In this document: positions 25,476-34,236 of the stretch, piece by piece | How positions within the stretch are numbered: position 1 is the stretch's first letter | Layout of the letters: each line of letters starts with the position of its first letter | NCBI GenBank assembly: GCA_003164895.1 | Contig: PLUL01000026.1 | Location: 1-34,451, forward strand | DNA length: 34,451 bases | Source: Bacteroidota bacterium | Lineage (GTDB): Bacteria; Bacteroidota; Bacteroidia; Palsa-948 | Direction: 5' to 3' | Position numbers and translations under genes: made by a program | Notes under the pieces: generated by a model | Told to the model about the DNA's origin: nothing | Databases searched by the model: none | Seen by the model: only the letters and a program-made list of their open reading frames with translations

Positions 25476-26459
25476 ATGAAATTATTAATTGAAAATTTTC
25501 CAAACCAGCTTCGCGAAGCTATACTCATAGGAGAAAAGGTAAAACTTTCACCTTCTAAAAGAAAAATTTCTAATGTATTTATTTCCGGTCTTGGTGGTTC
25601 TGGAATTGGCGGAACAATCGTCAGTGAATTGGCAGCAATGTATTCCCCCGTGTCGATTACGGTTGGTAAGGGATATTTTATACCAAAATTTGTAAATGAG
25701 AATACACTTGTCATTATTTCGTCATACAGCGGAAATACTGAAGAAACTTTAAATTGTCTGAATCTCGCTTTGAAAAGAAAAGCCAAAATTGTTTGCATTA
25801 CTTCAGGTGGAAAAGTTGCAGAAATTGCAAAAAATAAAAAATTAGATTTGATTTTGATTCCCGGAGGAAATCCTCCACGTGCTTGTTTGGGATATTCTCT
25901 CACGCAATTGTTATATGTTTTATCACATTTTAAAATCATCAGCAATAAATTCAAAGCGCAATTAAAATCTTCTGTTGAATTAATTGAACGTGAAAAACAA
26001 AATATTATTTCTGAAGCCAATACTATTGCAGAAAAAATTCATGGAAAGACACCGATGATTTATGCAACTACTTATTTTGAAGGAATTGCCATTCGTTTTC
26101 GCCAACAAATAAATGAGAATGCGAAAATGCTTTGCGGGCATCACGTGATTCCTGAAATGAATCATAATGAATTGGTAGGATGGGCGAGCGGAAGTGAAAA
26201 GATTTCTGTAATTATTTTCCGAGATAAAGATGAGTTTGAACGTAACAATGCTCGCATCGTGATAAACAAAGAAGTAATAAAAAAATATACTCCGAACATA
26301 ATTGAAATTTGGTCAAAAGGAAAATCACAAATTGAAAAAGCAATTTACTTTATCCATCTTGGCGACTGGATTTCCATATTTCTGGCGGAGAAACGAGGAG
26401 TGGATGCGGTGGAAGTGAAAGTGATTGATATGCTGAAAGGCGAGCTTTCCAAAATATGA
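25476..26459 (+). CDS. Bifunctional phosphoglucose/phosphomannose isomerase
   Basis: The protein has 327 aa. A SIS domain is seen in 'ISGLGGSGIGGTIVSELA' (phosphosugar-binding) and 'VIISSYSGNTEETLNC'. The bacterial PGI/PMI C-terminal half has 'IPGGNPPRACLGYSLTQL' and 'PEMNHNELVGW', the latter carrying the catalytic Glu and His region typical of this family. It interconverts glucose-6-phosphate, fructose-6-phosphate and mannose-6-phosphate. In Bacteroidota this short form replaces or complements the classical PGI. It feeds fructose-6-phosphate to PfkA (11822). lipB overlaps its stop by 4 nt (ATGA), indicating translational coupling. Confidence 0.92.
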   Translation: MKLLIENFPNQLREAILIGEKVKLSPSKRKISNVFISGLGGSGIGGTIVSELAAMYSPVSITVGKGYFIPKFVNENTLVIISSYSGNTEETLNCLNLALKRKAKIVCITSGGKVAEIAKNKKLDLILIPGGNPPRACLGYSLTQLLYVLSHFKIISNKFKAQLKSSVELIEREKQNIISEANTIAEKIHGKTPMIYATTYFEGIAIRFRQQINENAKMLCGHHVIPEMNHNELVGWASGSEKISVIIFRDKDEFERNNARIVINKEVIKKYTPNIIEIWSKGKSQIEKAIYFIHLGDWISIFLAEKRGVDAVEVKVIDMLKGELSKI

Positions 26460-27190
26460 TTTCTTTCCCAATGCCTAATGTTCAAACTAAACAGAAAATT
26501 CTTTTTAAGGATTTAGGTCTTATTGATTACAAAGAATGTTGGGATTATCAGGAAAAACTTTTTCAGGAAATTATTTCTCGAAAAATTCAAAATAGAAATT
26601 CTTCCATCGACAATCAATCACCAACCATCAGCCATTTGTTATTTTGTGAGCATCCTCACGTTTACACACTTGGGAAAAGCGGTGACGAGAAAAATCTTTT
26701 ACTGAACGAATCTCAGCTTCAAACGAAAAATGCTACTTACTACAAAATAAATCGCGGAGGCGATATCACCTATCACGGTCCCGGGCAAATTGTGGGGTAT
26801 CCGATTTTGGATTTGGATAATTTCTTTACCGACATTCACAAATACCTGCGTTTTCTGGAAGAAACAATTATTCTCACATTGAAAGATTATGGAATTGAAT
26901 CTGGAAGAATTGAAGGGCTTACCGGTGTTTGGCTGGACTGGAAAAATCCTGCAAAGGCAAGAAAAATATGTGCGATGGGTGTTCGCACTTCCCGCTGGGT
27001 AACGATGCACGGATTTGCTTTCAATGTAAATTCGGATTTGAGTTATTTTAAAAATATTATTCCCTGCGGAATTCAGGATAAAGCCGTTACTTCAATGAAG
27101 CACGAACTCGGAAGAGAAGTTGATATGAATGAAGTGAAACAGAAAGTAAAAAAATACTTTGCTGAAGTTTTTGAATGTGAAATTGTCTGA
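26456..27190 (+). CDS. lipB: Octanoyltransferase (lipoate-protein ligase B)
   Basis: The protein has 244 aa, starting in a 4-nt overlap with the isomerase stop; an in-frame ATG at 26471 is a possible shorter start. The fold signatures are 'FCEHPHVYTLGKSG', 'NRGGDITYHGPGQIVGYPI' and 'RTSRWVTMHGFAFNV', with the catalytic Cys in 'IIPCGIQDKAVTSM' and the conserved Lys in 'RKICAMGVR'. The enzyme moves octanoate from acyl-carrier protein to the lipoyl domains of 2-oxoacid dehydrogenases and glycine cleavage H protein. LipA, which adds the sulfurs, is encoded at 30710 in the same window. A short insert (about residues 42-60) is Asn/Ser-rich and may be a lineage-specific loop. Confidence 0.95.
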   Translation: MISFPMPNVQTKQKILFKDLGLIDYKECWDYQEKLFQEIISRKIQNRNSSIDNQSPTISHLLFCEHPHVYTLGKSGDEKNLLLNESQLQTKNATYYKINRGGDITYHGPGQIVGYPILDLDNFFTDIHKYLRFLEETIILTLKDYGIESGRIEGLTGVWLDWKNPAKARKICAMGVRTSRWVTMHGFAFNVNSDLSYFKNIIPCGIQDKAVTSMKHELGREVDMNEVKQKVKKYFAEVFECEIV

Positions 27191-30709: not shown

Positions 30710-31576
30710 GTGTCTGACATTCTTGAAATTCCCCAGCGAGCAAAAAAACCGGATTGGTTAAGAGTAAAACTTCCAATTGGGGAAAATTATCTTCAGGTTA
30801 GAAAATTAGTTGACACTCATAAACTCCACACGATTTGCGAGAGTGGCAATTGCCCGAATATGGGCGAATGTTGGGGGGCTGGAACTGCCACATTTATGAT
30901 TCTTGGAAATATTTGTACGCGTTCTTGCGGATTTTGTGCTGTTGCAACTGGTAAACCAAATACTGTGGACAAGAACGAACCCGAACGAGTTGCAAATTCT
31001 GTGAAGCTGATGAATGTAAAACATTGCGTCATTACTTCGGTTGATAGAGATGATTTGCCGGATGGAGGATCTATGATTTGGGTAGAAACAATTCGTGCGG
31101 TAAGAAAAATTTCTCCACAGACAAAATTTGAAACTCTCATTCCTGATTTTCAAGGTAATAAGGAAAAGATGGAACGGGTTTTTGTAGAACGCCCCGAAGT
31201 TTTATCTCACAATCTTGAAACAGTAAAACGATTGACCAAACAAGTTCGTGTTCAGGCAAAATATGAAAGAAGTTTAGATGTGTTGAAAAGTGCAAAGGAA
31301 TTCGGATTAAGAACAAAATCAGGAATTATGCTTGGCTTGGGAGAAACCGAAGAGGAAATTATTGAATCCATGAATGATTTGCGAAATGCAAAAACGGATG
31401 TGCTTACGCTTGGACAATATCTGCAACCCACCAAACAACATTTATCTGTTCAAGAGTTTGTTCATCCTGAAAAATTTGCCAAGTATAAAGAGATTGGATT
31501 AAAAATGGGATTTTTATATGTGGAAAGTTCTCCGCTTGTTCGTTCATCATATCATGCGGAAAAACATGTGCTTTGA
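30710..31576 (+). CDS. lipA: Lipoyl synthase
   Basis: The protein has 288 aa, starting with GTG 30710 ('[20 protein letters not shown]'). The auxiliary [4Fe-4S] cluster Cys are C43, C48 and C54 in '[12 protein letters not shown]'; the radical-SAM cluster Cys are C69, C73 and C76 in 'CTRSCGFC'. The conserved Ser of the C-terminal 'RSSYHAEKH' tail, which ligates the auxiliary cluster, is present. It inserts two sulfurs into octanoyl groups placed by LipB (encoded at 26456), so the window carries the complete de novo lipoylation pair, split by other genes. Length and motifs are standard. Confidence 0.97.
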
Positions 31577-31627: not shown

Positions 31628-31659
31628 TACCCAACCATTTTGTGCATTTATACATCTTA
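31628..31659 (+). promoter_or_regulatory. Putative ECF-type promoter, TACCCAACCATT-N13-CATCTTA
   Basis: TACCCAACCATT (31628-31639) is followed 13 nt later by CATCTTA (31653-31659). The same arrangement occurs at 33749. An AACC-containing -35 with a CGTC/CATC-like -10 is typical of promoters used by extracytoplasmic-function sigma factors, and the site ends 12 nt before the sigma gene. Autoregulation is an inference. Confidence 0.5.
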
Positions 31660-31671
31660 ATAATATAGGCA

Positions 31672-32238
31672 ATGCCGGATTTCAGTGAAGAAGAAATAGT
31701 TAAGCAATGTCTGAAGGGCGATAGAGCTTTTCAAAAAATCCTTTACAATCGGTATGCGGGTAAAATGCTTGCTGTGTGTTTCCGATATGCCGATGGAAGA
31801 GAGGAAGCAGAAGATGTTCTGCAGGAAGGATTTATAACAGTTTTTGAAAAACTTCATCAATTTAGAGGAGAAGGGTCTTTTGAAGGATGGATAAGAAAAA
31901 TCATGGTAAATAAATCGTTAGAACATTATAGAAAAGGATCGCGAATGTTCACGCGAGTGCATATTGAAGAAGAGTCGAATCAGTTTATCAGTTCTGAAGA
32001 TATTCTATCAAATATTTCTTCAAAAGAATTGCTCGAAATAGTGCAAGAACTTCCTCCGGTTTACAAAATGGTTTTCAATCTTTTTGCATTTGAAGGAATG
32101 AAACATAAAGAAATTGCAGAACAACTTGGAATTTCGGAAGGTACATCAAAATCAAATCTTTCGGATGCAAGAACCATTTTGAAAAGAAAAGTAAAACTGC
32201 TGATGGGAAGTGTGGTAGCTCAAGAAATTGTAGGATGA
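31672..32238 (+). CDS. ECF-type RNA polymerase sigma factor
   Basis: The protein has 188 aa. Region 2 is seen in 'FQKILYNRYAGKMLAVCFRY', with 'EEAEDVLQEGFITVFEKL' (region 2.2) and 'GSFEGWIRKIMVNKSLEHYRK' (2.3-2.4). Region 4 follows with 'LPPVYKMVFNLFAFEGMKHKEIAEQLGISEGTSKSNLSDAR' as a helix-turn-helix. ECF factors direct core RNA polymerase to a small target set and are held by a membrane anti-sigma factor. Its stop overlaps the next start by 4 nt (ATGA), so that neighbour is the likely partner. The upstream motif at 31628 is a candidate self-target. Confidence 0.93.
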   Translation: MPDFSEEEIVKQCLKGDRAFQKILYNRYAGKMLAVCFRYADGREEAEDVLQEGFITVFEKLHQFRGEGSFEGWIRKIMVNKSLEHYRKGSRMFTRVHIEEESNQFISSEDILSNISSKELLEIVQELPPVYKMVFNLFAFEGMKHKEIAEQLGISEGTSKSNLSDARTILKRKVKLLMGSVVAQEIVG

Positions 32239-33746
32239 AAAAAAATATTAACCTGACAGATGATTTGGACAACGCTTTTAATAAAGCGATTGAACCGATG
32301 GAGATTGAGCCGTCTGAATCTGTTTGGAAAAATGTGGATGCCGGATTAACAAGGGTTGAAAACTCCCTTCTTAAAAAGAAAATTATTTTCTGGAAAAAAA
32401 TAGCAGCATCTATTTCAGTTTTTCTTGTTGCGCTTGGGATATTTTTCTTCTACCAATATTCCAATCCTAAACCATCTCATCAATTAGTAAAAGCGGATAT
32501 AACAGAAAGTAAATTAGCATCAGAACAACAACAAACAACAAATTCATCTGTTGAAAAAGAACCTTTGGCTGTTGTAAGTCAGAAAAAGATGGAATCATTA
32601 CCTGTAAATTCTGAACAGAAAGAAAAGAAAATTGGCACAAACACCAGTTCAATTCTAACTGTGATTTCTGAAAATAATTCCGCAGAATCTAATCAAAAGG
32701 AAAATTATATTGAATCAGAAAAGAAAGAACCCGCAACAGAAATTCAAAGTGTTATTTCAACTGAAGTAAATACAGAAAAAATCAATTCAGCAGTTTCTGG
32801 TCAGCAGTCTTCATTACATACTAATAAAATAAATAATTCCAAATCCGATTCGACGGTAGATATTCCCGAGAAGGAAACACAGCAGTTATCAGTTTTTTCT
32901 GAGATAAATCATAATACTTTGAAGGATTCTTCTGCGCTTCCGAAATGTAATGAGCCGTTGACCGGGGTTGCTTCTGCGAATCCGTCTGAAGTTCCTAACA
33001 CAGTTGGCATTCATACTTCCGCCATCTTTTCGCACATTTATGTTGAAGGAATATTTTCGCCTGAAATTACAAATCAATATTTGAAAGACAATAATACTTC
33101 GGATGCATTTTCAAAACAAAGTGTAAAATCACACGAAGTAAATATTGTTTCACATTCAGAAGGAATAAAATTTGGATACGACATTAATCATTGGAGTATT
33201 GAAACTGGATGTATTTATTATCAGGAGCATATAAATATTTTACCAAGTACAATTGCACCGTATGAATTAAATGGAGAAATTCATAGTTCTTTAGTAACGA
33301 GCAGTGGCGTAGTAGATATTCCTTTAAATGGAGCACATCATATAAGTGATAGTGTTGATATAAAAAGTGGTTCGAATCAAGTACTTAGTTTTGTTAATAT
33401 TCCTATACAAGTTAAGTATAGGTTTGGAGGAAAAAAATTATCCTTTTATGTCATGTCAGGTATTTCTGCAAATGTTTTAACGCAAGAAAAAACTAATTTA
33501 AAAATGGATCATGATCATGACCAAGATGATGGAGGTGATAGAACAGTAATTGGAATCAAGGGAACTAAAAATGTTTTTTATGGATATTCGCTTGGTATGG
33601 GCGCGAGTTATAAATGCTTTAGAGGATTTTATTTGAATTTGGAACCGTTATTCAGAGGCGCAATGACATCTCTTAATAAGGATACTCCAATAAAAACATA
33701 CCCAAATACTTTTGGAATTGGAATAATTGCAGGGTATCATTTCTAA
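32235..33746 (+). CDS. Envelope-spanning protein: anti-sigma-like N-terminus, one transmembrane helix, beta-barrel-like C-terminus
   Basis: The protein has 503 aa. Residues 1-53 are cytoplasmic-type, acidic then basic ('DDLDNAFNKAIEPMEIEPSESVWKNVDAGL'). One hydrophobic helix follows (about 56-73, 'AASISVFLVALGIFFFY'), then a Ser/Thr/Glu/Gln-rich linker of about 200 residues. From about 300 to the end are alternating strands ('IKFGYDINHWSIETGCIYYQ', 'FVNIPIQVKYRFGGKKLSFYVMSG', 'FYLNLEPLFRGAM') ending 'GIGIIAGYHF' with a terminal Phe, as in outer-membrane barrels. A His/Asp-rich loop 'DHDHDQDDGGD' (425-435) might bind metal. The overlap with the sigma gene suggests that it controls the sigma factor. 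The topology is inference. Confidence 0.75.
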   Translation: MKKNINLTDDLDNAFNKAIEPMEIEPSESVWKNVDAGLTRVENSLLKKKIIFWKKIAASISVFLVALGIFFFYQYSNPKPSHQLVKADITESKLASEQQQTTNSSVEKEPLAVVSQKKMESLPVNSEQKEKKIGTNTSSILTVISENNSAESNQKENYIESEKKEPATEIQSVISTEVNTEKINSAVSGQQSSLHTNKINNSKSDSTVDIPEKETQQLSVFSEINHNTLKDSSALPKCNEPLTGVASANPSEVPNTVGIHTSAIFSHIYVEGIFSPEITNQYLKDNNTSDAFSKQSVKSHEVNIVSHSEGIKFGYDINHWSIETGCIYYQEHINILPSTIAPYELNGEIHSSLVTSSGVVDIPLNGAHHISDSVDIKSGSNQVLSFVNIPIQVKYRFGGKKLSFYVMSGISANVLTQEKTNLKMDHDHDQDDGGDRTVIGIKGTKNVFYGYSLGMGASYKCFRGFYLNLEPLFRGAMTSLNKDTPIKTYPNTFGIGIIAGYHF

Positions 33747-33748
33747 TT

Positions 33749-33780
33749 TACCCAACCATTCTCTTGTTTTTTTCATCTAT
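33749..33780 (+). promoter_or_regulatory. Second putative ECF-type promoter, TACCCAACCATT-N13-CATCTAT
   Basis: TACCCAACCATT (33749-33760) and CATCTAT (33774-33780) have the same 13-nt gap as the site at 31628. The site lies 2 nt after the preceding stop and 33 nt before the Rieske ATG, inside a short intergenic space, where a promoter would otherwise not be needed. Confidence 0.5.
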
Positions 33781-33813: not shown

Positions 33814-34236
33814 ATGGATAGAAGAGATTTTATAAAATCATCCTGCGCTTTTTGTGGCGTTGCAATTGCGGGAGTTGCCTTAATAGATAGTTGCAAGAAA
33901 CCTGCGCCAACTCCAGTTGTAGTAAACTTTACTTTGGATTTGACGAATTCAGCAAATTCTGCTTTAAACTCGGTTGGTGGATATGTTTATAGCAATAATG
34001 TGATTGTTGCAAGAATCAATAGTGCGGTTGCCGCTACATCTTTTGTTGCTTTATCAGAAGCATGCACACATGCCGGATGCACGGTTTCTTATTCTGGAAG
34101 TTCCTCTCGCTTTGTGTGTCCTTGCCACGGAGGTATGTTTGATACAAGTGGCAATGTTGTTTCAGGTCCGCCTCCATCAGCACTCACAAAATATAAAACC
34201 ACTTTGAGTGGAAACATTTTGTCTGTAAATTCGTGA
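33814..34236 (+). CDS. Tat-type Rieske [2Fe-2S] lipoprotein
   Basis: The protein has 140 aa from ATG 33814; an upstream in-frame TTG at 33727 would lie inside the previous gene and override the promoter. The N-terminus 'MDRRDFIKSS' is a twin-arginine signal and 'ALIDSC' (22-27) a lipobox, so it is exported folded and lipid-anchored. Rieske ligands are C84/H86 in 'CTHAGC' and C102/H105 in 'CPCHGG', with the C89-C104 disulfide pair of high-potential (bc1-like) Rieske proteins. The small size and lack of a partner cytochrome gene suggest an electron carrier of its own. Known substrates are not apparent. Confidence 0.92.
   Translation: MDRRDFIKSSCAFCGVAIAGVALIDSCKKPAPTPVVVNFTLDLTNSANSALNSVGGYVYSNNVIVARINSAVAATSFVALSEACTHAGCTVSYSGSSSRFVCPCHGGMFDTSGNVVSGPPPSALTKYKTTLSGNILSVNS

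Follow-up and report, generated by a model that had tools for sequence, protein, structure and literature searches.

A repeated, identically spaced ECF-type motif points to a Rieske gene and a wider redox-type set as probable targets of a Das-Dma sigma/anti-sigma pair in a Bacteroidia genome

An identically spaced bipartite motif precedes both a sigma factor gene and a nearby Rieske gene, which raises the question of whether that same sigma factor reads both of them as promoters. The window (the whole stretch of 34,451 nucleotides that was analyzed) is contig 46 of a 3.25-Mb Bacteroidia genome (G000). Both 30-nt sites matching TACCCAACCATT-N13-CATCT were located on the + strand at 31628 and 33749, exactly where the first-pass annotation had placed them; at each, 13 nt separate the 12-mer from CATCT, which leaves the stated gap of 16 nt from ACCCAACC to CATC. 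It had put the sites 12 and 33 nt from a start codon; counted from the last T of CATCT, these distances are 14 nt (ATG 31672) and 35 nt (ATG 33814). The features of the locus are as follows.

31628..31657, + strand: P1 (TACCCAACCATTTTGTGCATTTATACATCT), putative sigma-operon promoter; -35 ACCCAACC at 31629-31636, 16-nt spacer, -10 CATCT at 31653-31657; exact repeat, conserved with unchanged spacing before orthologous sigma genes
31672..32238, + strand: das, ECF21-like sigma factor, 188 aa (Pfam Sigma70_r2 and Sigma70_r4_2)
32235..33746, + strand: dma, Dma-type anti-sigma factor (OMP_b-brl_2, family alignment, AlphaFold2 model, Foldseek)
32400..32459, + strand: predicted inner-membrane helix of Dma, about residues 56-75 (sequence; helix 28-76 in both models)
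32463..33026, + strand: disordered periplasmic tether of Dma, residues 77-264 (pLDDT <50 throughout)
33027..33743, + strand: predicted outer-membrane beta-barrel of Dma, residues 265-503 (strands with pLDDT mostly >80; Foldseek)
33749..33778, + strand: P2 (TACCCAACCATTCTCTTGTTTTTTTCATCT), putative Rieske-gene promoter; -35 ACCCAACC at 33750-33757, 16-nt spacer, -10 CATCT at 33774-33778; exact repeat, with equivalent sites before Rieske genes in other lineages
33814..34236, + strand: Rieske [2Fe-2S] protein, 140 aa (Pfam Rieske PF00355, 1.8e-12; homologues)

Base composition predicts 5e-6 occurrences of TACCCAACCATT-N13-CATCT per window and 5e-4 per genome, and dinucleotide shuffles of the window gave zero matches. 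When the genome was scanned by pattern search, the full 17-base pattern returned two exact and three one-mismatch matches, all of them intergenic and pointing into a gene. Its core, ACCCAACY-N16-CATCT, was found exactly seven times against an expectation of 0.13; all seven sites front genes and none lies inside a recognized gene, so that the scatter at random or within coding regions that had been named as an objection was not seen. The genes behind these sites are das (P1), the Rieske gene (P2), a CxxCH/choice-of-anchor V T9SS protein (C22), a lipoprotein-YceI-DUF5777 operon (C48), two large PKD-domain T9SS proteins that have no redox signature (C34 and C76) and a DUF7793 gene (C3). The redox-type module is split up in this genome, with the Rieske gene adjoining dma, CxxCH on C22 and YceI-DUF5777 on C48, each carrying the motif; the label "redox" is suggested by the Rieske ligands, the CxxCH motifs and YceI. 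Among the 48 occurrences of CAACC-N14-18-CATCT in the genome, 24 had a spacing of 16, with 11, 4, 7, and 2 at spacings of 14, 15, 17, and 18, respectively.

The sigma factor encoded downstream of P1 contains regions 2 and 4 only (Pfam), and its gene overlaps dma by 4 nt (ATGA). It is provisionally classed as ECF21-like, by its Dma partner and the published description. Das1/Dma1 and Das2/Dma2 of Bacteroides thetaiotaomicron pair an ECF21 sigma factor with a dual membrane-spanning anti-sigma factor (PMC13088901). As in that organism, das is followed by a Dma gene whose product has an anti-sigma N-terminus, a transmembrane helix, a long disordered tether and a barrel, and the pair is of the known Das-Dma kind. 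In B. thetaiotaomicron, vesiculation (governed by Das1 by way of NigD1) and polysaccharide loci are under the control of these pairs, whereas the predicted targets here are the Rieske gene and extracytoplasmic redox-type genes. Named relatives were from Bacteroidota with one exception, the systematic search having covered Bacteroidia; in the exception (L273), das-dma lies in a record that bears the title Candidatus Kuenenia and is probably a mis-binned contig. Two Saprospiraceae das genes (L308, L309) had no Dma-like gene directly downstream. The window also carries the lipoate synthesis genes LipB (26456-27190) and LipA (30710-31576); LipA lies directly upstream of P1 and has an apparent GTG start.

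The first-pass annotation had overlooked the nature of the gene at 32235, which on structural modeling is predicted to encode a dual membrane-spanning anti-sigma factor reaching the outer membrane. A usable model was obtained from an alignment of 12 sequences, the single-sequence model being poor (pLDDT 37), and AlphaFold2 placed a helix at residues 28-76, disorder at 77-264 and barrel strands at 268-502. In the family alignment, DxxFxxxIExxExxPSxxxW stands out as a conserved motif of the N-terminus, which is short and cytosolic. Beyond the helix, a tether of about 190 disordered residues leads to a C-terminal beta-barrel that ends in F, and Foldseek matched this barrel to OmpA, NspA, and OmpW. 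The protein encoded downstream of P2 retains the complete set of Rieske ligands (CTHAGC...CPCHGG, in agreement with CxHxGC and CxCHG). It carries a Tat-like RRDFIK signal and is a probable lipoprotein. All of its matches to the bc1 and b6f equivalog families fell under the curated cut-offs.

A Das homologue was encoded by 330 of the 395 Bacteroidia genomes surveyed (E value, 1e-30 or better). The closest das orthologues (60 to 67% identity) belong to a family other than that of the window genome; in most of them, ACCCAAC[CT]-N16-CATCT occupies the equivalent position. The suggestion to compare upstream regions of orthologous sigma genes was followed up across 134 distinct upstream regions of homologous sigma genes, where [CG]CAAC[CT]-N16-[CT][AG]TCT was present at a spacing of 16 in 58, compared with 0 to 3 at any other spacing; the opposite strand gave 2 and shuffles averaged about 0.1. 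A -35/-10 pair about 16 nt apart is therefore conserved upstream of orthologous sigma genes, as expected of an autoregulated promoter, and the proposal that the ECF factor drives its own operon is strongly supported. The exact motif was absent from the other genomes of the window genome's genus, which encode weaker das homologues, and one of these (G006) has TATCT as its -10. Four Hymenobacter das loci (L305, L311, L321, and L340) carry a different conserved upstream stretch, GCGTATGCAGCA...CCGGCCTCCGC, in place of the motif.

Linkage to Rieske genes also extends beyond the window, das and Rieske being neighbors in four other lineages. G325, G304, and G233 share the arrangement P-das-dma-P-Rieske-P-CxxCH protein-CxxCH lipoprotein (P denoting the promoter), after which come YceI and then DUF5777 in G325 and G233. 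The orders das-dma-Rieske-DUF5777-YceI and das-dma-Rieske were found in G241 and Runella, respectively, and the Rieske gene of G103 is divergent from das. The -10 boxes of das and its neighbor drift together between lineages: four genomes (that of the window, G325, G304, and G233) have the das/Rieske pair CATCT/CATCT, whereas this pair is CAACT/CAACT in Runella and TGTC/TGTC in G103 (where all three boxes are TGTC), and the das/neighbor-gene pair is TATCT/TATCT in G006 and CGTCT/CGTCT in G088 and G282. In G120, the Rieske gene has TTGAACC-N16-CGTCT, as does a das paralogue on another contig, which suggests that this regulon may have followed a new sigma variant. For 18 automatically collected pairs of neighbor and das promoters, the -35 base agreed in 16 and the -10 in 14, with shuffle means of 10.2 and 7.9 (P of ∼1e-4 and 2.5e-4, respectively, relatedness being ignored). 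Given that the two genes sit beside each other in four other lineages and that their promoters change together, the claim that the Rieske gene is a target of the sigma factor is also strongly supported. The same claim had described it as an unusual target; the Rieske gene holds as a target, but a single odd target does not, as the regulon appears to be a wider extracytoplasmic redox-type set.

The relaxed -10 (xGACT) of the 18-pair analysis gave extra "G-type" sites, some of them taken as lying inside coding sequence, and the count for residue 165 was therefore redone with a strict, unbiased promoter pattern across 135 homologues. Asp165 accompanied CC as the two bases before AAC in 19 of 19 cases and Arg165 accompanied GC in 43 of 43; the remainder were His with GC (n = 2), Tyr with TG (n = 2) and Lys with AC (n = 1). 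The unlinked das paralogue of G120 that shares the Rieske promoter type (L216, L223) has Tyr165. In Das, D165 lies in the -35 recognition helix and aligns with R176 of E. coli SigmaE and, by match coordinates and a conserved four-residue spacing to an invariant Ser, with R186 of Mycobacterium tuberculosis SigH, a residue that contacts the first G of GGAAYA through two hydrogen bonds (PMC6411747). Both of those factors, as is predicted for Das, read the -35 through the region 4.2 helix, theirs being of the GGAAC type; the aligned residue here is Asp and the base is C, whereas relatives with Arg have G. D165 would thus account for the CCCAAC form of the -35. In a tree from which these columns were omitted, the Arg/GCAAC and His/GCAAC lineages are nested inside the Asp/CCAAC group, with two to three independent D/R contrasts, too few for a formal test. 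No residue clearly tracked the A/G choice of the -10. Matches of region 4 to TAL effectors were dismissed as repeat artifacts.

Rieske genes adjoin seven D-type das loci, including that of the window, compared with none of the 101 other loci for which enough sequence was available. A number of D-type loci lack a Rieske gene in their vicinity, and at several of them a different gene follows dma. Within the window's genome, a second promoter set, GCAACC-N16-CATCT, was identified, for example before the paralogous sigma gene C52:11754, and is predicted to belong to this Arg165 paralogue. Its sites are C52:11713, C1:1411, C34:2171, C61:9108 and 8986, C51:36580, and C50:91317; those on C1 and C34 belong to secreted proteins that are related to each other, and an acyl-carrier protein gene is preceded by two sites in tandem.

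Taking together the motif, its spacing, conservation and co-variation, the gene neighborhood and the architecture of Dma, all read from sequence, we put at roughly 0.86 the probability that P1 and P2 are promoters read by Das, regulated by Dma and accompanied by dispersed targets. Autoregulation and a redox regulon are strongly supported but unproven. The promoters of das and the Rieske gene vary in concert among distantly related bacteria, and for this reason it is very probable that Das activates a group of electron-transfer proteins located beyond the inner membrane. In the mechanism that we infer, which takes in transcription from both sites, the signal, the release step, the chemistry and the redox role, the cytosolic N-terminus of Dma would bind Das and keep it inactive, by analogy with Dma1/Das1, where direct inhibition has been reported, with the body of Dma spanning both membranes and the periplasm between them. 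Das would be released when the outer-membrane barrel senses a change, and free Das would transcribe das-dma from P1, the Rieske gene from P2 and the other ACCCAACY-N16-CATCT targets (CxxCH T9SS, lipoprotein-YceI-DUF5777, PKD/T9SS, and DUF7793). Asp165 would set the preference for C before CAAC, keeping this regulon apart from that of the Arg165 paralogue reading GCAAC. On balance, we lean toward a broader proposal in which the Asp165/CCCAACC branch of Das/Dma couples an outer-membrane sensor to an electron-transfer module, with the D-C and R-G code insulating it from sister sigma factors; as part of that same joint reading, and with the same modest preference, the module would be extracytoplasmic and comprise the Rieske protein, CxxCH T9SS proteins, YceI, and the DUF5777 barrel.

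Several observations count against P1 and P2 as promoters read by Das, among them the absence of the exact motif from the other genomes of the genus and the D-type loci that lack a nearby Rieske gene. The predicted leader from P1 would start only ∼5 to 9 nt 5′ of the sigma start, although similarly short distances from CATCT to the start codon recur in orthologues of das. Read-through from das-dma could also extend into the Rieske gene, P2 beginning 2 nt after the dma stop, which, together with the presence of at least three further ECF21-like paralogues in the genome, lends something to an arrangement in which only P1 is autoregulatory and P2 is a decayed copy or is read by another paralogue, the Rieske gene being expressed mainly by read-through. 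This is unlikely, as P2 matches exactly, whereas C52, the nearest paralogue, has R165 and a gene preceded by GCAACC; moreover, a matching site of its own is retained by the Rieske gene even in G103, where it is divergent, and in G120, where it is on another contig.

More improbable still is a reading of P1 and P2 as operators, bound by some DNA-binding regulator and not by the sigma factor. Conserved bipartite sites can be operators, but the spacing here is fixed at 16 nt, the sites are on a single strand just upstream of genes, the -10 variants fall in the usual ECF range and the -35 base is linked one-to-one to a residue of the sigma recognition helix. As the spacers and flanks of P1 and P2 are unrelated, a recent duplication of one promoter was ruled out. 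That the repeat is functionless, whether by chance or by local duplication, has next to nothing in its favor beyond the location of both copies within 2.2 kb; five more exact core sites elsewhere and the conservation across lineages strongly disfavor it.

Dma anti-sigma factors have been described recently and few targets are known. With P1 and P2 read as Das promoters, a sharp, searchable motif could make Das regulons readable from sequence in hundreds of Bacteroidota, mostly uncultured, and indicates a redox module as a class of Das target. The locus would also illustrate, in nature, how a sigma factor and its promoters can co-evolve through a single residue and a single base. Another Bacteroidota ECF factor, SigP of Porphyromonas gingivalis, regulates the T9SS (PMC4800418), and some of the predicted targets here carry T9SS sorting domains; SigP acts with PorX/PorY, whereas the partner here is Dma. 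Neither a published ECF21 promoter motif nor a Rieske-YceI-DUF5777 system was found in the open literature searched, and the same holds for the target set, promoter definition and residue-base code; some of the promoter motif may nonetheless have been recorded before.

No motif was present in the 127 nt upstream of a further Rieske operon in the window's genome (G000:C36), where the upstream region ends at the contig end. That operon (L203:128-2120) combines a second Rieske gene, 71% identical to the first, with YceI and DUF5777.
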